Assembly: GCF_018474005.1 (NCBI RefSeq)
Contig: NZ_JAHCSH010000007.1
Coordinates: 1-64,000, forward strand
Direction of reading: 5' to 3'
Origin: Curvibacter sp. CHRR-16
GTDB lineage: Bacteria > Pseudomonadota > Gammaproteobacteria > Burkholderiales > Burkholderiaceae_C
DNA length: 64,000 bases
Shown here: positions 30,736 through 41,716 of the stretch, in pieces
Position numbering within the stretch: the stretch's first letter is position 1
Layout: each line of letters begins with the position of its first letter
Notes under the pieces: generated by a model
What the model saw: only the letters and a program-made list of their open reading frames with translations
Databases searched by the model: none
What the model was told of the DNA's origin: nothing
Made by a program: the position numbers and the translations under genes

Positions 30736-31562
30736 GCCGCATTGCCAACACTTTCCAAAACCTGCAAGCGCAAGGCCGCAAAGCACTCATCCCCTTTGTG
30801 ACTGCGGGCTTTCCGTATGCCGACATCACGCCCGAACTGATGCACGCCATGGTGGCCGGTGGTGCTGACGTGATCGAGCTGGGTGTGCCCTTCTCCGACC
30901 CCAGCGCTGACGGCCCGGTGATCCAGCAAGCCGGCGACAAAGCCTTGGCTTTTGGCATTGGCTTGGTGCAAGTGCTGGACATGGTGCGCCTATTCCGCCA
31001 AACCAATACCAGTACACCCGTGGTGCTGATGGGCTATGCCAACCCGGTAGAGCGCTACGACCAAAAACACGCGACAGCCGGTGTGCCTAGCGCCTTCGTG
31101 CGCGATGCAGCAGAGGCAGGCGTCGATGGCGTGCTGATCGTGGACTATCCACCCGAGGAATGCGAAGCATTCGCTGCCAACTTGCGCGCCCATGGCATGG
31201 ATTTGATCTTCTTGCTCGCTCCCACCAGCACCGATGAGCGCATGGCCCAAGTGGCCCGCATCGCCAGTGGCTATGTGTACTACGTATCGCTCAAAGGCGT
31301 GACGGGTGCTGGCACCTTGGACACCGCAGCGGTGCAAGCCATGCTGCCCCGCATTCGCAAGCACATCCATATCCCAGTGGGTGTAGGTTTTGGCATCCGC
31401 GATGCGCACACCGCCCAGGCCATCGGATCGGTGGCCGATGCGGTGGTCATAGGCAGCCGCATCATCCAGTTGATTGGTGACAAAAACCGTGCAGAGGTAG
31501 CCCCTACAGCCCAGACGTTTATGCAGGGGATTCGCACCGCATTGGACAATGCATCGTCGTAA
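30732..31562 (+). CDS. trpA: Tryptophan synthase alpha chain
   Basis: This 276-residue TIM barrel cleaves indole-3-glycerol phosphate and channels indole to TrpB. Catalytic Glu and Asp are in [19 protein letters not shown] and [10 protein letters not shown]; the phosphate site is VGVGFGIRD and VIGSRII. The start overlaps trpB by 4 bases. The last 14 bases overlap the largest possible frame of the next gene, an outer-membrane efflux lipoprotein. Confidence 0.96.
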
Positions 31563-33024
31563 ACCACTGAGCACCCCATCGTCTATGCCCAAGCCCACAT
31601 TGCCACAGTCAGTACCAACATACCGCATGCGCTCCTGCTTTGGGGCTGTGGGCTTGGCTTGGGGGCTTGGGATAGCAGCACTTGGCTTGAGCGCCTGCGC
31701 CAGCCGTGCTCCGGCCACTTTGAGCGAGTCAGTGCCACAAGGCAGTGCCATTCCTGACCAGTTAGGCCCCGCCGACGGCCCCGTTGCCACCCTGAGCCCC
31801 ACTGCATGGCGCGACATCGTGACCGATCCACGTTTGGTACAACTGGTCGAACAAGCCCTGCAAAACAACTTGGACTTGCGCACCGCAGCCCTGAACATCG
31901 ATGCCGCCCGCGCCAGTTACCGCATCAGCGAAGCCAACCAGCTGCCTACGCTCAATGCCTCGGCATCGGTCACCCGCTCGGCTACCGGTGATGCATCGCC
32001 CACCAACCGCTACAACGTGTCCTTGGGCCTTGCCTCGTGGGAGATCGACCTGTGGGGACGCCTTGGCCAACTCAAGGCCGCTGCCTTGGCCAGCTACATG
32101 GCTACCGAAGAAACCAAGGCCAGTGTGCAAACCACCCTCATTACCGAGGTGGTGCAGGCTTGGCTGACCCTGGCAGCCGACCAATCGCTGGCACGCCTGT
32201 CCCAAGAAACCTTGGCAGCCCGCCAGTCCACCTTGGAACTCACGCAGCGCAAAGTGGACTTGGGAGCCGCCTCGCAATTGGATTGGGCCACCGCCCGCGC
32301 CAGTGTCGAGACCGCCCGCGCCTCCTTGGCATCGGCCCAGTCCCAAGTGGAACAAGACCGCAATGCCCTGCGTTTGCTGCTGGGCAGTGAGCCCGCAGCC
32401 AAACTGCTGCCCACCGACCATGAAGACACCCAGCTCGTGGCCCTGCCACCTGTGCCAGCCAACTTGGCATCCACCGTGCTGCTGCGCCGCCCAGATGTGC
32501 GCTCTGCCGAGCGCAGCCTGCAAGCCCAGCAGGCCAACTTGGCCGCTGCACGCGCCGCGTTGCTGCCCACCATCAGCCTGACCAGTTCGATAGGCCAATC
32601 CAGCAGCACACTGGAAGACCTGATGAAAGACAGCGCCCGCACTTGGAGCATTGCCCCATCCATCAGCTTGCCGATTTTTGATGGCGGTACCAGCCGCGCC
32701 AACGTTCAAGCAGCTGATGTGAAGCAACAACTGGCGCTGACCAGCTACCAAAAAACGCTGCAAAACGCCTTCCAAGAAACCGCCGATGCCTTGGCCGTGC
32801 GCCGACATCTGGGCGAACGCTTAGCCGCGCAGCAAGCCCAAGTGCAAGCTTACGAGACCGTGCTGCGCCTGACCGAGAAGCAGCGCGAACTGGGGGCGGC
32901 ATCCACCGCCGCTGTGCTGACCGCCCAGCTCAACCTGTTTTCCGCCCAGCAAAGCCTGATCAGCCTGCGCCTGACCGAACAGAGCAACCGCCTCACGCTC
33001 TACAAGGTCATGGGCGGCGTCTAA
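31549..33024 (+). CDS. NodT-family outer-membrane efflux lipoprotein (TolC-like)
   Basis: The product has two outer-membrane efflux domains with the repeated tunnel helices ([21 protein letters not shown] in pieces; [62 protein letters not shown]). A lipoprotein signal with LSAC follows [20 protein letters not shown], so the true start may be the ATG at 31585 or 31627 rather than 31549. It would form the outer-membrane channel of a tripartite pump. It lies between trpA and accD, genes that are usually adjacent here, and no adaptor or pump gene is beside it; MacAB lies about 8 kb upstream. Confidence 0.88.
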
Positions 33025-34645: not shown

Positions 34646-34762
34646 GGCTTAGCAAGCAAAACAGTGCATGGAAGGTTGCGCATCATACGGCGGCTGCGCA
34701 CAGCCCCACTTACAATGGTGGGTTCGATTGCTAGTCCCTAGCCCCAACCTTTGTACACCGCC

Positions 34763-36304
34763 ATGACCGATACCACACAGACCCCTGTTGTCGATGAAAA
34801 CCAGCTGATCCACGAACGCCGCGAAAAACTCAAGGCCTTGCGCGAGGCTCAGGCTGCCGGTCAGGGCGTGGCTTTCCCCAACGACTTTGCGCCCACCCAC
34901 AAAGCGCAAGAATTGTTCGAGGCGTGGAATGACAAAACCCCCGAAGAACTGACCGCCAGCTCGGTGAGCGTGAAAGTGGCTGGCCGCATGATGCTCAAGC
35001 GCGTCATGGGCAAAGCCAGCTTCTGTACCGTGCAAGACGCCTCCTTTGGCGTCAGCGGTGGTCGCATCCAGCTCTACGTACGCGGTGAAGACGTGGGCGC
35101 AGAGGTGTATGCCGCCTTCAAGCACTGGGATTTGGGCGACATCGTGGCCGCAGAAGGCACGCTGTTCAAAACCAAAACAGGCGAACTCTCCATCCACGCC
35201 ACCAGCATCCGCCTGCTGACCAAAAGTCTGCGCCCCATGCCCGACAAGTTCCACGGCATGACCGATCAGGAGCAGAAATACCGCCAACGCTACGTGGACT
35301 TGATGACCGACGTGGACGCCCGCAAGCGCTTCGTGGCGCGCAGCAAGGCCGTGAGCGGCATGCGTGAATTCATGGTGCAGCACGGCTTTTTGGAAGTCGA
35401 AACGCCCATGCTGCACCCCATTCCCGGTGGAGCCAACGCCAAGCCCTTCATCACCCACCACAACGCGCTGGACCAAGAAATGTTCCTGCGCATCGCGCCC
35501 GAGCTCTACCTCAAGCGCCTGATCGTCGGTGGCTTTGACCGCGTGTTCGAAATCAACCGCAACTTCCGCAACGAAGGCATCTCGGTGCGCCACAACCCCG
35601 AGTTCACCATGATGGAGTTCTACGCGGCCTACTGGAACTACCGCGACCTGATGGATTTCACCGAAGCCTTGGTGCGCGATGCCGCACAAAAAGCCGTGGG
35701 CACCTTGCAGCTGACCTACGGTGGCAAGAGCGTGGATTTGGCGCAGCCCTTTGAGCGCCTGACCATCGTGGACGCCATCCGCAAGTACACCGAAGCGGGC
35801 GACAACGTGCTCAGCAGCGCATGGCTGATCGAGGCCCTCAAGAAACTGGGCATGAGCGAAGAGAAAGACCGCCTCTCCACCCGCAGCTTGGCCAGCCTGC
35901 AAGTGCTGTACTTTGAGGAAGTGGTGGAAGAAAAGCTGTGGCAGCCCACTTTCATCATGGAGCACCCCACCGAGATCAGCCCCTTGGCACGCGCCAACGA
36001 CCAGCGCCCCGAAGTGACCGAGCGCTTTGAGCTCTACATCACCGGACGCGAATTCGGCAACGGATTCTCCGAACTCAACGATGCCGAAGACCAAGCCGCC
36101 CGCTTCCAAGCCCAGGTGGCTGCCAAAGACAGCGGCGACGACGAGGCCATGTACTACGACCACGACTACGTGCGTGCGCTCGAATACGGCCTGCCGCCCA
36201 CCGGCGGCTGTGGCATTGGCATCGACCGCTTGATGATGCTCTTGACCGACAGTGCCAGCATCCGCGACATCATTTTGTTCCCTGCCCTGCGCCGCGAAGC
36301 CTGA
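34763..36304 (+). CDS. lysS: Lysyl-tRNA synthetase (class II)
   Basis: This 513-residue class II synthetase charges tRNA-Lys. It has an N-terminal OB-fold anticodon-binding domain ([23 protein letters not shown] in pieces) and the catalytic core with [20 protein letters not shown] (motif 2) and [15 protein letters not shown] (motif 3). TACAAT at about 34713 is a likely -10. The gene is 18 bases before a large NRPS-like gene, so the two are probably cotranscribed, which matters because that enzyme resembles poly-lysine synthetases. Confidence 0.97.
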
Positions 36305-36322
36305 AACTACCACGCAAACTGC

Positions 36323-39300
36323 ATGGAGCCCTCTGCCGCACTGAGCAGACAAGCCGGGCCCGATAGACCAGACCTCCTGCGCCAGGAGGTACTGGCCGAT
36401 ATCTTCGAGACCACGGCTGCACGCTGCCCAGAACACACCGCTTTGCTGTGGCAAGGCCAAGCCCTGCGCTATGCCGAGTTGAACCAGCGCGCTGACCGCG
36501 TTGCCCACCATCTGCTGGCCGCAGGCGTGCAAGCCGGTGACGTGCTGGGCCTGTACCTGCAACGCGGTATCGACCTGCTCACGCTGCAGTTGGGCATTGC
36601 CAAAACCGGGGCAGCATGGTTGGCGCTGGATGCCGATACGCCCGCAGAGCGCATCCACACCTGCCTACAAGATGCCAACGCCCGGGCCTTGCTCAGCCAC
36701 CATGCCCAACGAGACAAGCTACAAGGGGATAGCGCGCCCCTGCCCTGCCCCACTTGGTGGGCAGAAGACTTGCTAGCACCACCCCAGCCGCCAACAACAC
36801 CGCTGCTGCGCCGCAATGGCAACCCATCCACCACCGTGCGGGGCCACCACCCGGCCTACCTGATCTACACCTCTGGCTCTACGGGCAAGCCCAAGGGCAT
36901 TGCCATCAGCCAAGCCAGCATTTGCCACTTTCTGCGCAGTGAAAACAGCCAATTGGGCGTGCGGGCCGATGACACGGTCTACCAAGGCTTCTCGGTCGCG
37001 TTTGACATGTCGTTCGAGGAAATCTGGATCAGCTACCTCGTAGGGGCCACGTTGTGGATAGCCCCCAAAGACATCGCCACCGACGCACAGCGCCTGCCGC
37101 AAGCCCTGCGCGACAACGGTATCAGCGTGCTGCACGCCGTGCCCACGCTGCTGTCGCTGTTCCAAGACGATGTGCCCAACCTGCGCCTCATCAACCTCGG
37201 TGGTGAGATGTGCCCGCCAGCGCTGGTAGAGCGCTGGGCCCAACCGGGGCGGCAGATTTTCAATACCTATGGCCCCACCGAAGCCACGGTATCGGCCAGC
37301 TTGGCCCTGTTGCAAGCGGGCCAAGCCGTGACCATTGGCCAGGCGCTACCCAACTACGAGCTGTTGGTCATCCGCCACCCCATGCCCGAAAACGGCGTAC
37401 CCACCCTGCTGCCCCAAGGTGAAGTCGGCGAGCTGTGCATCAGCGGCCCCGGTTTGGCGATTGGCTACGTAGGCCGCCCTGAGCTCACCGCCGAGAAGTT
37501 CGCCCTCAACCCCTTTGCTACTGGCGAGCACAACCAACGCCTGTACCGCACAGGCGACTTGGCCCGCTTGGTCGAGCACGGCCAAGTGCACTGCTTAGGC
37601 CGTACGGATGACCAAGTGAAGATACGCGGCTTCCGTGTCGAACTGGGTGAGATTGAGGCCGTGTTGGCCGCCCAAGCCGGTGTAGGCGCTGCCGCCGTGC
37701 AACTGCGCCGCGACAAGGACATCGAACTGCTGGTGGCGTTTGTGGCACTCGATGGCCAAGCAACAGCCCAAACAGCCCAGCTAACCCCAGCATGGCGGCG
37801 TGCTTTGGCAACCCAGTTGCCCAGCTATATGGTGCCCAGCCACTACGAAGTGCTGGATGTTTTGCCACGACTGACATCGGGCAAGATAGACCGCAACGCC
37901 CTCAAGCAATTGCCGCTACGCCCTGCCACCCCAGAGGACGACAACGCCAACGATGCTCCACACAGCGCAACAGAAGCGGCGTTGTTTGGCGTGCTGCACT
38001 CCCTCTTCCCTGGTCAAAGCTTGCGCCGCACTGCGGACTTTTTCGATGACTTGGGCGGTCACTCTCTGCTGGCCGCCCGCGTCGCTTCTGCGCTGCGGGC
38101 GCAGCCAGGCTTGGGCCATGTGGCCGTGCGCCATATCTACCAACACCGCACTCTGGGCGCTATAGCAGCTGCCATTGAGGCCAGTGCCCCCCCATATGCA
38201 CCCGATGCAACAGCACCCGCAGGCCAAACCGGCAATGGCACCAGCTCGGCCCCAGAAGGCGCAGCAGCATGGCAACCCACCCGCGCTTTGGTGTGGCGTC
38301 GTGTGGCCTGCGGTGGCGGCCAGTTGCTGGTGCTGCCACTGCTGATTTGCTTGCGTATGGCGCAGTGGTTGGCGCCTTTTTTCACCTACCACATGTACAC
38401 CGGTGACCCCGGTGACTCCACCCCACGCGCCATTGGCTTGGCGGTAGCAGCTTTTTTGGCCAGCACGCTGCTCGAATTCGGCGTGGCCATTGCCGCCAAA
38501 TGGCTGCTGCTGGGACGCCTGCGAACTGGCCGCTACCCGCTGTGGGGGTGGTTGTATTTCCGCTGGTGGCTGGCAGACAGGCTGATCGAATCAGCGCCCG
38601 CCTATTTATTCAGCGGCTCCAGTTTGTACGCACTGTGGTTGCGTTTGCTAGGAGCCCATATTGGGCGCGATGTACTGATTGGCTCGGCGGTTGTGCGGGC
38701 ACCAGATTTACTGCACGCGGCCGATGGTGTGAGCCTGGGCAATGCCGTGAGTCTGGAAAATGTGCGCGTGCACCACGGCGAATTCATTGTCGGCCCCATC
38801 GTGCTGGAACGCGATGCCTACGTGGGCTCTTATGCCGTGCTGCAAGAAAACACCCGCTTAGGCGAATCTGCCCATTTGCAAGGCCAGTCTTGCCTGCTCA
38901 GCGGTCAACGCATACCAGACCAACGGGTGTGGCAAGGCTCTCCAGCCCAGGACTGCGGTGCTTTTGACTTAGCCCAAGCCCCTGCCCGCCCAGACTGCAG
39001 CCCTGTACGCCGCGCACTGGAGGGGGCTTACTACCTGCTAGGCGCTTTGCTCATGGCCACGCTGTTTTTCATACCGGTTTTCCCCACTTTTGTGCTGATC
39101 GACTGGTTGGACGAATACGAGTTGCCCCTAGGCTGGCTCGGTGATGGCGTGAGCTACCAATTGGTGAAATACTTTGTGCTCTCCTTCCCGGCGGCTGCGG
39201 TACTCATCGTCTGCACGGCTTTGCTCTCGGCCGCCATTCGCTGGCTGGTCTTGCCACGCCTGCGCCCTGGTTGCTGGTCGGTGCACAGCAGCGTGTACCT

Positions 39301-40432
39301 GCGCAAATGGTTGGTGAACCAAATCCAAGAAAACAGCTTGAATGTGCTGCACGGCATTTACGCCACGCTGTACTCGCCATGGTGGTATCGGCTGCTGGGT
39401 GCCAAGGTTGGGCGCGAGGCGGAAATATCCTCCGCCTTGGGCTTGGTACCCGACATGCTGACGCTGGGCGATGAAACCTTTATTGCCGATGCCGTGATGC
39501 TGGGCGATGAAGAGATCGACCGCGGCTGGATGCGCATGCAGCCCACTGTCATTGGCCAGCGCAGCTTTGTGGGCAATGGCGCTTACATCCCTGATGGCAC
39601 CACCTTGCCCGACAACGTGCTGGTGGGCGTGCTCTCCACCGCCCCCGCCAACACGCAAATGCGCAGCGGCCAAACATGGCTGGGCTCCCCGCCCATGCAC
39701 CTGCCTGCACGTGAGCAAACCCAAGGTTATCCAGCACACCTGACTTTTGCTCCCTTGCTGTGGCGACGCCTAGCGCGTGGGGCCATCGAGGCTTTTCGCA
39801 TCGTGGCACCGCATGCCATCGTGATATCGGTGGGCTACACCATGGTGCTGGATATTCTGCCCATTGCGGCCGATGGTGATTGGCTCACCACGCTGAGCTA
39901 TCTGGCTGCATGTGGTTTGCTATATGGCTGCGGCGCTCTCATTTTTGTAGCAGCGTTGAAATGGATGCTGATCGGGCGCTACCGCCCACGCAATGCGCCC
40001 ATGTGGACGCTTTTTGTCTGGATTTCAGAAGCCATCACCAGCTTGTATGAAGGCTTTGCCATCCCCAACTTCATGCGCTATCTGCGTGGCACCCCATGGC
40101 TGCCATGGGCCATGCGCATACTGGGGGTGCGCATTGGCAAGCATGTGTACATGGACACGACGGATATCACCGAATTCGACTGCGTACAAATCGGCGACTT
40201 CAGCGAGCTCAATGGCCAGTGCTGCCCCCAAACGCACCTGTTTGAAGACCGTGTGATGAAAGTCGATCACGTTCAGCTTGGCTCTTTTACAACATTAGAT
40301 GCGCGCAGCATCGTGCTTTACGGTGCCCATGTGCAAGAAGGTGCCCACGTCGGGCCACTTACCTTGGTCATGAAAGGCGAAAGCCTGCCTGCCAATACAC
40401 GCTGGCAAGGTTGTCCTGCAACCATCGCATAA
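36323..40432 (+). CDS. Pls/PosA-type non-ribosomal peptide synthetase (poly-amino-acid synthetase-like)
   Basis: This 1369-residue protein has an adenylation domain (YLIYTSGSTGKPKG near 180, FDMSFEEIW near 228, NTYGPTEATVS near 314, YRTGDLAR near 408, GKIDRNAL near 520), a carrier domain (FFDDLGGHSLLAARV, Ser near 578) and then six membrane helices in three pairs (about 660-735, 900-977, 1160-1215). Each pair is followed by a left-handed beta-helix, acyltransferase-like domain. This is the plan of epsilon-poly-lysine synthetase, in which the beta-helix domains join monomers. There is no thioesterase or condensation domain. By eye the pocket reads about D-M-E-H-N-G-T-V-S-K; the acidic residue would suit a basic amino acid, but the substrate is inference. 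Confidence 0.85.
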   Translation: MEPSAALSRQAGPDRPDLLRQEVLADIFETTAARCPEHTALLWQGQALRYAELNQRADRVAHHLLAAGVQAGDVLGLYLQRGIDLLTLQLGIAKTGAAWLALDADTPAERIHTCLQDANARALLSHHAQRDKLQGDSAPLPCPTWWAEDLLAPPQPPTTPLLRRNGNPSTTVRGHHPAYLIYTSGSTGKPKGIAISQASICHFLRSENSQLGVRADDTVYQGFSVAFDMSFEEIWISYLVGATLWIAPKDIATDAQRLPQALRDNGISVLHAVPTLLSLFQDDVPNLRLINLGGEMCPPALVERWAQPGRQIFNTYGPTEATVSASLALLQAGQAVTIGQALPNYELLVIRHPMPENGVPTLLPQGEVGELCISGPGLAIGYVGRPELTAEKFALNPFATGEHNQRLYRTGDLARLVEHGQVHCLGRTDDQVKIRGFRVELGEIEAVLAAQAGVGAAAVQLRRDKDIELLVAFVALDGQATAQTAQLTPAWRRALATQLPSYMVPSHYEVLDVLPRLTSGKIDRNALKQLPLRPATPEDDNANDAPHSATEAALFGVLHSLFPGQSLRRTADFFDDLGGHSLLAARVASALRAQPGLGHVAVRHIYQHRTLGAIAAAIEASAPPYAPDATAPAGQTGNGTSSAPEGAAAWQPTRALVWRRVACGGGQLLVLPLLICLRMAQWLAPFFTYHMYTGDPGDSTPRAIGLAVAAFLASTLLEFGVAIAAKWLLLGRLRTGRYPLWGWLYFRWWLADRLIESAPAYLFSGSSLYALWLRLLGAHIGRDVLIGSAVVRAPDLLHAADGVSLGNAVSLENVRVHHGEFIVGPIVLERDAYVGSYAVLQENTRLGESAHLQGQSCLLSGQRIPDQRVWQGSPAQDCGAFDLAQAPARPDCSPVRRALEGAYYLLGALLMATLFFIPVFPTFVLIDWLDEYELPLGWLGDGVSYQLVKYFVLSFPAAAVLIVCTALLSAAIRWLVLPRLRPGCWSVHSSVYLRKWLVNQIQENSLNVLHGIYATLYSPWWYRLLGAKVGREAEISSALGLVPDMLTLGDETFIADAVMLGDEEIDRGWMRMQPTVIGQRSFVGNGAYIPDGTTLPDNVLVGVLSTAPANTQMRSGQTWLGSPPMHLPAREQTQGYPAHLTFAPLLWRRLARGAIEAFRIVAPHAIVISVGYTMVLDILPIAADGDWLTTLSYLAACGLLYGCGALIFVAALKWMLIGRYRPRNAPMWTLFVWISEAITSLYEGFAIPNFMRYLRGTPWLPWAMRILGVRIGKHVYMDTTDITEFDCVQIGDFSELNGQCCPQTHLFEDRVMKVDHVQLGSFTTLDARSIVLYGAHVQEGAHVGPLTLVMKGESLPANTRWQGCPATIA

Positions 40433-40545
40433 CGATATACGTTTAACGCTCGCATTCACTATGCGAATGCAATTCATTATTAAAAAAAAGTTACTGTCTT
40501 ATACACCTGTCATGAAATAGCGCTACATTTGCAAAAATACAAAAT

Positions 40546-40571
40546 CCCAATTGACATATCACGCAATTGGG
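40546..40571. promoter_or_regulatory. Inverted repeat CCCAATTG-N10-CAATTGGG before the patatin-like gene
   Basis: Eight-base perfect arms (40546-40553 and 40564-40571) lie 30 bases before the chosen ATG. TTGACA, a perfect -35 hexamer, starts at 40551 and overlaps the left arm, so a protein bound here would block the promoter. A smaller repeat, GGGA-CAT-TCCC, overlaps the right arm. Confidence 0.5.
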
Positions 40572-40600
40572 ACATTCCCCTAACTTTCGTTGGATGCACT

Positions 40601-41716
40601 ATGACTAACACCTTAGGCAATGGGAAAACAGCCCTTATTCTTGGCGGGGGAGCACCGAACTCCACCCTGATAGCAGGTGCATTGGCTGCGTTTGTCGACT
40701 ACGAATTGGAGTTCGACGTCATTTCTGCATCGGGTGCCGGCGTCCTGATGGGCTTGCTTTACACAGCCCCCAAAGATGGCAACCCACGCGAAGCACTAGA
40801 GCGCTGGGCTGACGTTGGGGTTAGCGACAACCTCTACAAGCTATTCCCCGTTAATTACAAGGTTTTCCAAAAACCTGGCAACCAAGCCGAGGGGTTTCGC
40901 TCCGCTCTATCCCCGCTGATGGCGGGCCACAACACATCCCCCCTAGAGCACCCCATGTTGGGCATGCTGACCCAACCCATGCAAGCCATGGCCGGGGCTT
41001 GGAGTGACTGGGCACAGCTCATGTTTAGCGCCATGTCACCCAGCAACCTGAGCTCCAAAAGTTTGGGGCTGTGCGCACACTTGCCGTTCTTAGAGCAATC
41101 CGTCAACTTTGATGCAGTCTCCCGCATGGGGCCCGAGTTCTACATCAACGCCTTCAACATCGAGCAAGGCCAGATGACGATTTGGAACAAGCAAGAAATC
41201 ACACCGCTCCACGTACGGGCGGCACTGTCCTTTCCTTTTTTGTACGCCCCCACTGAAATCGATGGTGAGCACTACATCGAAGGTGCGGCGCTCGACACCC
41301 TGAACTTTGAGCCCTTCACCACCGACGCCAAGGGCCAGCAACGCCACCCCGAAGTGGACACTTTGGTGGTGCTAGACATTCTGGGGGACCACCGCTTTAT
41401 ACGCAAACCCCGCAATCTGTACGACGCCTGGGTGCGTTCCATCATCACGCCGTTGGTGAAAATTTCCAAGGCTGAGCAGCGTTTGTTCGAGCTTGAACAC
41501 AACCGTGATCCCCTTACGGGCAATAGCAAGCGCCAAATACTGCGCGTTGATTTGCTCGATCGCATTCCAAAAAAACACTGGCCTTCGGTATTGGACTGGT
41601 CGACATCCAATATGCAAACCCTCTTCCAAGTAGGCTACCAAGCTGGCTTGGACTTCTGCCGTGAGCACGGCTCCTCGCTCGGTGCCATCAACGCACCCCC
41701 TTCTTTGGCTGCATAA
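40601..41716 (+). CDS. Patatin-like phospholipase family protein
   Basis: This 371-residue protein starts MTNTLGNGKTALILGGGAPN, the glycine-rich oxyanion loop of the patatin fold, followed by FDVISASGAGVLMGLLY at the nucleophile-elbow position and YIEGAALDTLNFEPF where patatins carry D-G-G/A. The elbow reads S-A-S-G-A-G rather than G-x-S-x-G, and the expected Asp is replaced by Glu, so activity is uncertain. I prefer the ATG at 40601 to an in-frame TTG at 40529, which would place an inverted repeat inside the gene. No signal peptide is seen, so it is probably cytoplasmic. Confidence 0.75.
   Translation: MTNTLGNGKTALILGGGAPNSTLIAGALAAFVDYELEFDVISASGAGVLMGLLYTAPKDGNPREALERWADVGVSDNLYKLFPVNYKVFQKPGNQAEGFRSALSPLMAGHNTSPLEHPMLGMLTQPMQAMAGAWSDWAQLMFSAMSPSNLSSKSLGLCAHLPFLEQSVNFDAVSRMGPEFYINAFNIEQGQMTIWNKQEITPLHVRAALSFPFLYAPTEIDGEHYIEGAALDTLNFEPFTTDAKGQQRHPEVDTLVVLDILGDHRFIRKPRNLYDAWVRSIITPLVKISKAEQRLFELEHNRDPLTGNSKRQILRVDLLDRIPKKHWPSVLDWSTSNMQTLFQVGYQAGLDFCREHGSSLGAINAPPSLAA

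Follow-up and report, generated by a model that had tools for sequence, protein, structure and literature searches.

The window analysed here, a stretch of 64,000 nucleotides from Curvibacter sp. CHRR-16 (contig NZ_JAHCSH010000007.1, positions 1 to 64,000), contains a posA-like gene whose product is very probably a PosA-type enzyme joining ornithine, not lysine, into a short cationic chain. This prediction relies on the adenylation pocket, whose specificity code, DMEHNGTVSK, shares all ten letters with that of PosA from Acinetobacter baumannii, a demonstrated delta-poly-L-ornithine synthetase (PMC10522769). The gene is an open reading frame (ORF) starting with ATG and running over 1369 codons with no internal stop. 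It was examined together with the following features.

36323..40432, + strand: posA-like gene, predicted delta-poly-L-ornithine synthetase, 1369 aa (family score and pocket code)
36380..37912, + strand: adenylation domain, about residues 20-530 (AMP-binding and AMP-binding_C; best solved relative PosA 8g95)
37004..37294, + strand: nine of the ten pocket-code residues, D228 M229 E232 H271 N291 G293 T315 V323 S324 (alignment to 8g95)
38015..38176, + strand: carrier (PP-binding), residues 565-618, with attachment Ser581 in LGGHSL (Pfam and motif)

A sequence-only reading of this DNA had assigned the protein to the Pls/PosA-type poly-amino-acid synthetases. The assignment holds, as the TIGR02353 model of this family (NRPS_term_dom) scores 817.1 bits against a curated NCBIfam cut-off of 423.1, with a match spanning residues 667-1366 and model positions 3-695 of 695. 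The NCBIfam amino-acid adenylation domain reaches 385 bits, and Pfam places AMP-binding at residues 28-382, the AMP-binding C-terminal domain at 443-521, PP-binding at 565-618 and hexapeptide repeats further on. The features that characterize the family are thus all found: a single adenylation domain, a carrier with its phosphopantetheine serine and, as predicted, three tandem repeats with three membrane-helix pairs. This domain plan, far beyond chance, had been described in the same terms from the letters and is supported by Pfam, hydropathy, AlphaFold2 and HHalign alike. The carrier serine, Ser581 in LGGHSL, is intact and conserved in 84 of 84 aligned rows (the window protein and 83 others, at least two of them second copies; L081, which has no clean open frame, was left out).

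Pocket code and predicted monomer

Nine code residues lie in the interval listed above, and the tenth, K521, falls outside it. The sixth letter is taken as Gly293, two residues past Asn291, and the tenth as the Lys of the SGKIDR motif. The nine residues were mapped by alignment to 8g95 with the numbering of PMC10522769, the tenth through its motif, and the mapping was repeated on full-length relatives. Among 208 matched solved sequences, 8g95 had the best E-value, with 59% identity over 399 residues of the adenylation domain. Compared with PosA (PDB 8g95-8g98), the window protein has the same domain plan and full code, with an identity of 58-59% across the adenylation domain and of 53% over the whole protein. 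PosA is the nearest characterised relative in sequence: a full-length A. baumannii relative, which has the code DMEHNGTVSK as well, is 53% identical to the window protein, versus 34% for an annotated Pls.

Crystal structures and mutants have shown that D217, M218, E221, T304 and S313 of PosA contact ornithine (PMC10522769); the window protein has D228, M229, E232, T315 and S324 at these positions. PosA was reported to prefer L-ornithine over L-lysine more than 160-fold and to produce delta-poly-L-ornithine chains 7-12 units long, without making any lysine polymer (PMC10522769). Of the 84 rows, 83 have DMEHNGTVSK and the remaining one differs by a T to S change. A wider comparison took in 32 aligned members, with A. 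baumannii PosA and Streptomyces Pls among them; 20 are betaproteobacterial or closely related and 12 come from other classes or phyla. DAESIGTVVK was read in the Pls annotated in Streptomyces and in one copy from Kitasatospora, DMEHNGTVTK in a Sphingomonas copy, and the other branches have Phe or Leu at position 2.

These comparisons bear on the view, held by the sequence-only reading, that the protein is an epsilon-poly-L-lysine synthetase coupled to the upstream lysyl-tRNA synthetase gene, lysS, through a shared need for lysine. The Pls-like domain plan and the acidic pocket residue that it had noticed, E232, are both present, and the expectation of a basic monomer stands, the pocket being that of an ornithine enzyme and not neutral. 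The small residue of the lysine pocket, Ala at code position 2 in the annotated Streptomyces Pls, is replaced by Met229, as in PosA, and PosA itself discriminates strongly against lysine. Since the code equals that of PosA and departs from that of the annotated Pls, lysine is unlikely as the monomer, and it was rejected as a candidate on the basis of the pocket. The protein had also been singled out for an undescribed product; delta-poly-L-ornithine was already described in 2023, and relatives with the PosA code have been reported as widespread (PMC10522769).

Other members of the family illustrate how the code varies. The annotated Pls (Streptomyces sp. NBC_01454, WP_329142456.1) shares with the window protein the adenylation domain, the carrier, the three-repeat C-terminal domain and the Q1303/H1305 motif discussed below, and differs by its 34% identity, its code DAESIGTVVK and an M1 peptidase gene downstream. 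Members with Phe at position 2 (DFECISAVTK and similar) share family and plan. DFECISAVTK occurs in three divergent rows of the wider set (L166, L167 and L168), from the same family as the window genome, which in contrast to the window protein have GANS or GAHS as carrier motif. As Phe at this position has been linked to diaminopropionate and diaminobutyrate (PMC10522769), these rows suggest a shorter diamino acid. Among the members with Phe at position 2, two plasmid-borne Pls/PosA genes (L191 and L194) were observed beside diaminobutyrate transaminase genes, one of them named ectB, which fits a poly-diaminobutyrate product.

C-terminal domain and candidate catalytic centre

Averaged over the family, hydropathy revealed six membrane-like segments, arranged as three pairs. 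For residues 641-1369, an AlphaFold2 model computed with 45 relatives (mean predicted local distance difference test, pLDDT, 85.4; predicted template modelling score, pTM, 0.89), shows three repeats, each composed of a helix pair, a strand, helices and a beta-helix lobe, a fold that agrees with the PosA model described in PMC10522769. The third lobe is the least certain part, with pLDDT blocks of 54-83. All three repeats share homology, with HHalign probabilities of 96-99%.

38279..38512, + strand: membrane helix pair 1, residues 653-691 and 700-730 (AlphaFold2, hydropathy)
38687..38962, + strand: beta-helix lobe 1, about residues 789-880 (AlphaFold2)
39002..39250, + strand: membrane helix pair 2, residues 894-930 and 943-976 (hydropathy, AlphaFold2)
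39401..39703, + strand: beta-helix lobe 2, about residues 1027-1127 (AlphaFold2; Hexapep match at 1074-1102)
39758..39973, + strand: membrane helix pair 3, residues 1146-1183 and 1187-1217 (hydropathy, AlphaFold2)
40124..40429, + strand: beta-helix lobe 3, about residues 1268-1369, with invariant E1284, Q1303, H1305 and E1353 (AlphaFold2, HHalign, alignment)

Among the 50 solved structures listed by Foldseek, there was no full-length relative of this domain; single lobes matched hexapeptide acyltransferases, the nearest solved folds, and over the whole query the 50 listed matches reached template modelling scores (TM-scores) of only 0.09-0.16. Hexapeptide-repeat acyltransferases (maltose, galactoside and serine acetyltransferases) and gamma carbonic anhydrases have left-handed beta-helix lobes like the window protein; unlike it, they are single soluble lobes with neither membrane pairs nor carrier.

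Residues that never change in the C-terminal domain include R747, D1056, N1085, E1236, E1284, Q1303, H1305 and E1353 (32 of 32 aligned members). In the HHalign alignments, the Q-x-H motif formed by two of them is confined to repeat 3: His1305 faces Val in repeat 1 (consensus Ala) and, through repeat 1, Glu in repeat 2. Hexapeptide acyltransferases use a His between lobes, and it is because of this precedent that lobe 3, with His1305, is proposed as the likeliest candidate for the catalytic (polymerase) centre. In the open-licence literature searched, no paper was seen to name a single invariant Gln-x-His of the third lobe as candidate catalytic centre of this domain.

Position of the gene next to lysS

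34751..36304, + strand: lysS, lysyl-tRNA synthetase, the upstream neighbour, listed from TTG with a provisional start (TIGR00499 lysS_bact, 651 bits)

The stop codon of lysS ends at 36304, which confirms the gap of exactly 18 bases pointed out earlier. The two genes are probably co-transcribed, because of this short gap and because no terminator-like site between them was listed in a terminator scan (in the promoter and terminator scan, site counts did not exceed those of shuffles beyond about one standard deviation).

The meaning of this adjacency was investigated in a genus group of 103 genomes, 51 of them with a completeness of 90% or more and a contamination of 5% or less. TIGR02353 scored above its cut-off in 11 of the 103, window included, and the gene was present in 22 of 299 genomes of a wider family sample. 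Upstream of posA and on the same strand, lysS occurs in nine of the 11, again with the window; it is absent from about 7.6 kb upstream of posA in G378, and in G393 the contig ends inside posA. Direct adjacency was seen in the window alone; in the eight congeners, lysS and posA are about 3.2-5.3 kb apart and separated by one or more genes. The gene next after lysS is the same in each of the eight and was not found in the window genome, which fits the loss of the stretch between lysS and posA in the latter. More widely, a set of 105 loci (the window and 104 others) was compared, of which 96 have at least 5 kb upstream. Eight of these 96 contain lysS, in six places, two of them represented twice, and all belong to the genus group. 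In the remaining 88 loci lysS was not found, but as these mostly span only about 6 kb, a farther lysS would be missed.

In nine of the ten other posA genomes of the genus, an AcpS-like gene follows posA at 1.9-4.3 kb, in the opposite orientation, which places posA and its 4'-phosphopantetheinyl transferase (PPTase) gene between lysS and acpS; the window genome has its AcpS-like gene on a different contig. Because lysS is 3.2-5.3 kb away in congeners and posA sits between lysS and acpS, the position looks like a shared chromosome place and not like a lysine operon or a shared function. The linkage to lysS anticipated outside this strain does exist in the genus, as a loose neighbourhood only; the conserved, close linkage of an operon dedicated to lysine was not observed, and lysS was rejected as functional partner on distance and distribution. 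As to the lysine synthetase considered above, the 18-base spacing and the presence of lysS upstream in nine of 11 genomes speak for it, while the 88 loci in which lysS was not found, and the fact that a tRNA synthetase uses up lysine and does not supply it, add to the evidence of the pocket and leave it highly improbable.

The descent of the gene was addressed by two trees, both quick searches. The first, in which an outgroup and two other long branches were kept, placed the window protein in an unresolved fork; with these removed, it fell inside the same-genus group with a support of 89 in the Shimodaira-Hasegawa-like approximate likelihood ratio test (SH-aLRT), a six-row set being supported at 95. 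Vertical descent is favoured, although not firmly, and independent arrival by transfer is disfavoured by the nesting in the second tree. A plasmid origin was also rejected, as a DNA search of plasmids matched six records, each covering at most 8% of the query.

Linked phosphopantetheinyl transferase, mechanism and other neighbours

Clustering of neighbouring genes revealed one frequent neighbour of posA, directly downstream and on the same strand, which is the PPTase (PF01648 in three of three tested; motifs G-x-D and W-x(3)-E-A-x-L-K conserved in 11 of 11 aligned). It was found downstream of 80 of 107 distinct posA-family genes, using a profile built from matches in the same loci that were counted; the window is among the 27 without. 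The 80 comprise 65 adjacent genes, three at 1.5-1.7 kb (a filter total of 68 of 107) and 12 loci added by hand (L070, L072, L076, L077, L078, L081, L090, L093, L094, L104, L158 and L165), which the filter missed because the stop-to-stop frame of the PPTase runs back into posA; in each of these twelve loci, the gene lies downstream of posA and in the same orientation. In the set of 107, L181 was removed as a duplicate, and L111, L113 and L180, second copies of L063, L031 and L033, were not entered.

Within the genus, strong matches to the profile (242-290 bits) occur in exactly the ten other posA genomes, scores that are high by construction as the profile derives partly from those genomes. With 30 candidates scored per genome, none of the 92 genomes without posA gave a match above 48 bits; six gave weak matches of 28-48 bits, read as other PPTases. 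In nine of the ten, the linked PPTase is the sole PF01648 match besides the AcpS-like protein, G365 having a third. The window genome encodes, besides its AcpS-like protein, two other non-AcpS PPTases, of 219 and 281 aa, one beside non-ribosomal peptide synthetase (NRPS), esterase and TonB receptor genes, read as a siderophore cluster, and one beside beta-ketoacyl synthases.

The simplest account of this distribution is that the linked PPTase loads the carrier and that the window enzyme would use another one. For the assay of PosA, the full-length enzyme was first treated with the PPTase Sfp (PMC10522769). Genomes whose posA gene lacks a linked PPTase were compared in 23 of the 27 cases (the window and the three DFECISAVTK rows were left out): at least two PF01648 matches were found in 20 of 23 genomes, and, against this simple account, only one in three (G086, G213 and G438). 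Among genomes with a linked PPTase, 17 of 22 searched (from 23 hand-chosen among the 80 loci) had at most two PF01648 matches in all. The test of spare PPTases across genomes is thus mixed. The posA-PPTase pair was annotated in three of 11 plasmid records (Rhizobium, Sphingomonas and Shinella) and not in the other eight (two Streptomyces, Kitasatospora, Rhodococcus, Azospirillum, Skermanella, Phyllobacterium and Pseudonocardia), from a sample of 12 of 67 matching records, 11 of them annotated, with an incomplete gene table. The available sections of PMC4361855 and PMC11078359 make no mention of a PPTase gene beside the synthetase, and no statement on a PPTase linked to a Pls, non-alpha poly-amino acid (NAPAA) or poly-ornithine synthetase was found in the open-licence literature searched. 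PosA itself, described as a single-gene operon (PMC10522769), has in L185 no same-strand ORF of at least 90 aa starting within 1.1 kb downstream, the window being likewise without a linked PPTase. The window enzyme differs from PosA in its betaproteobacterial host, the 18 bases to lysS, its long branch and a product that is predicted.

Based on the identical pocket, the adenylation domain would activate L-ornithine with ATP, and the ornithyl group would be loaded on the phosphopantetheine arm at Ser581. As the usual linked gene is missing, this arm is presumably placed by a PPTase encoded elsewhere in the genome. By analogy with PosA, the C-terminal domain, with its three helix pairs each bearing a hexapeptide-type lobe, would hold the thioester and the growing chain and form delta-isopeptide bonds, leading to a short cationic chain at the inner membrane, and catalysis would most likely take place in the third lobe, to which the invariant Gln-x-His is confined. 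A probable but weakly supported biological role is an antifungal or competitive one, or one related to the surface.

Several observations weigh against a poly-ornithine synthetase. The linked PPTase was not found downstream of the gene; neither a promoter-like site, in the promoter scan, nor a clear ribosome-binding site was seen ahead of it; and the protein sits on a long branch (0.97-1.08 changes per column versus a median of about 0.2), so that some shift of function is possible. In addition, the code predicts adenylation and not a polymer, and the C-terminal domain could use another acceptor.

The long branch, together with the PPTase not found downstream and the gene that follows lysS in congeners, which was not found in the window genome, might indicate a silent or decaying remnant of intact appearance, whose linked PPTase and intervening genes are gone and whose sequence has drifted. 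Against this stand the 1369 open codons and the retention of 317 of 324 columns invariant in 101 relatives, a retention that does not support gene decay; L160, also open, likewise breaks seven of these columns. None of the seven concerns the pocket, the carrier or Q1303/H1305, all of which are retained, and two non-AcpS PPTases are present in the genome. Such a remnant is quite improbable, and the protein looks functional despite its long branch.

The other concern, the acceptor, relates to the gene found where most relatives have the PPTase.

40529..41716, + strand: patatin-like gene, listed from TTG 40529, in-frame ATG 40601 possible (ORF list, Pfam)

A modified or mixed product would arise if ornithine were activated and the chain joined to a lipid, a sugar or an envelope component, possibly with the patatin-like protein. 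The patatin-like gene lies 96 bases downstream on the same strand, and in Ottowia thiooxydans, a member of the Burkholderiales, a hybrid lipid cluster is reported to contain a module resembling Pls/PosA (PMC13291983). Patatin was not found near posA in any of the 104 other loci, and was rejected as partner for this reason; a hairpin-like site separates the two genes, although such sites show no excess over shuffles here; and the window protein keeps 159 C-terminal columns invariant in relatives and breaks four. A product of this kind is considered highly unlikely. An MCP was rejected as well, its matches being scattered.

Other genes were observed around these loci. In six congener loci (L031, L033, L063, L112, L178 and L179), the gene after the PPTase encodes a subtilase (Peptidase_S8 with a PKD-like tail according to Pfam, run for L063 and L033); an S8 peptidase gene lies two genes after the PPTase in Sphingomonas, and M1 peptidase genes occur beside Pls-type genes in Streptomyces and Kitasatospora. 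The subtilase might trim the polymer or confer resistance to it. The window also contains a TolC-like outer membrane efflux protein (OEP) gene (31549-33024), about 30 bases before accD; weak OEP relatives were seen near posA in two of 85 loci only. Finally, G075:C1:448349-462292 has two matches of the Pls/PosA type, separated by about 12 kb; the open frame of the second is shorter, at 872 aa.

Collectively, these data correct a likely misreading of the monomer, from lysine to ornithine, in a betaproteobacterial posA set that fits the reported spread of relatives with the PosA code (PMC10522769). A broader scenario, speculative and on balance doubtful, is that many proteobacterial poly-ornithine synthetases are two-gene systems, whose PPTase would here have been lost, with activation by another PPTase, a housekeeping gene upstream, a constitutive polycation and fast divergence, perhaps to an envelope role, His1305 of lobe 3 being the polymerase centre family-wide, including in epsilon-poly-lysine synthetase. 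For the Pls/PosA family, the recurrent linked PPTase offers a testable point, and the invariant Gln-x-His of the third lobe a testable candidate for the centre of the polymerase domain.

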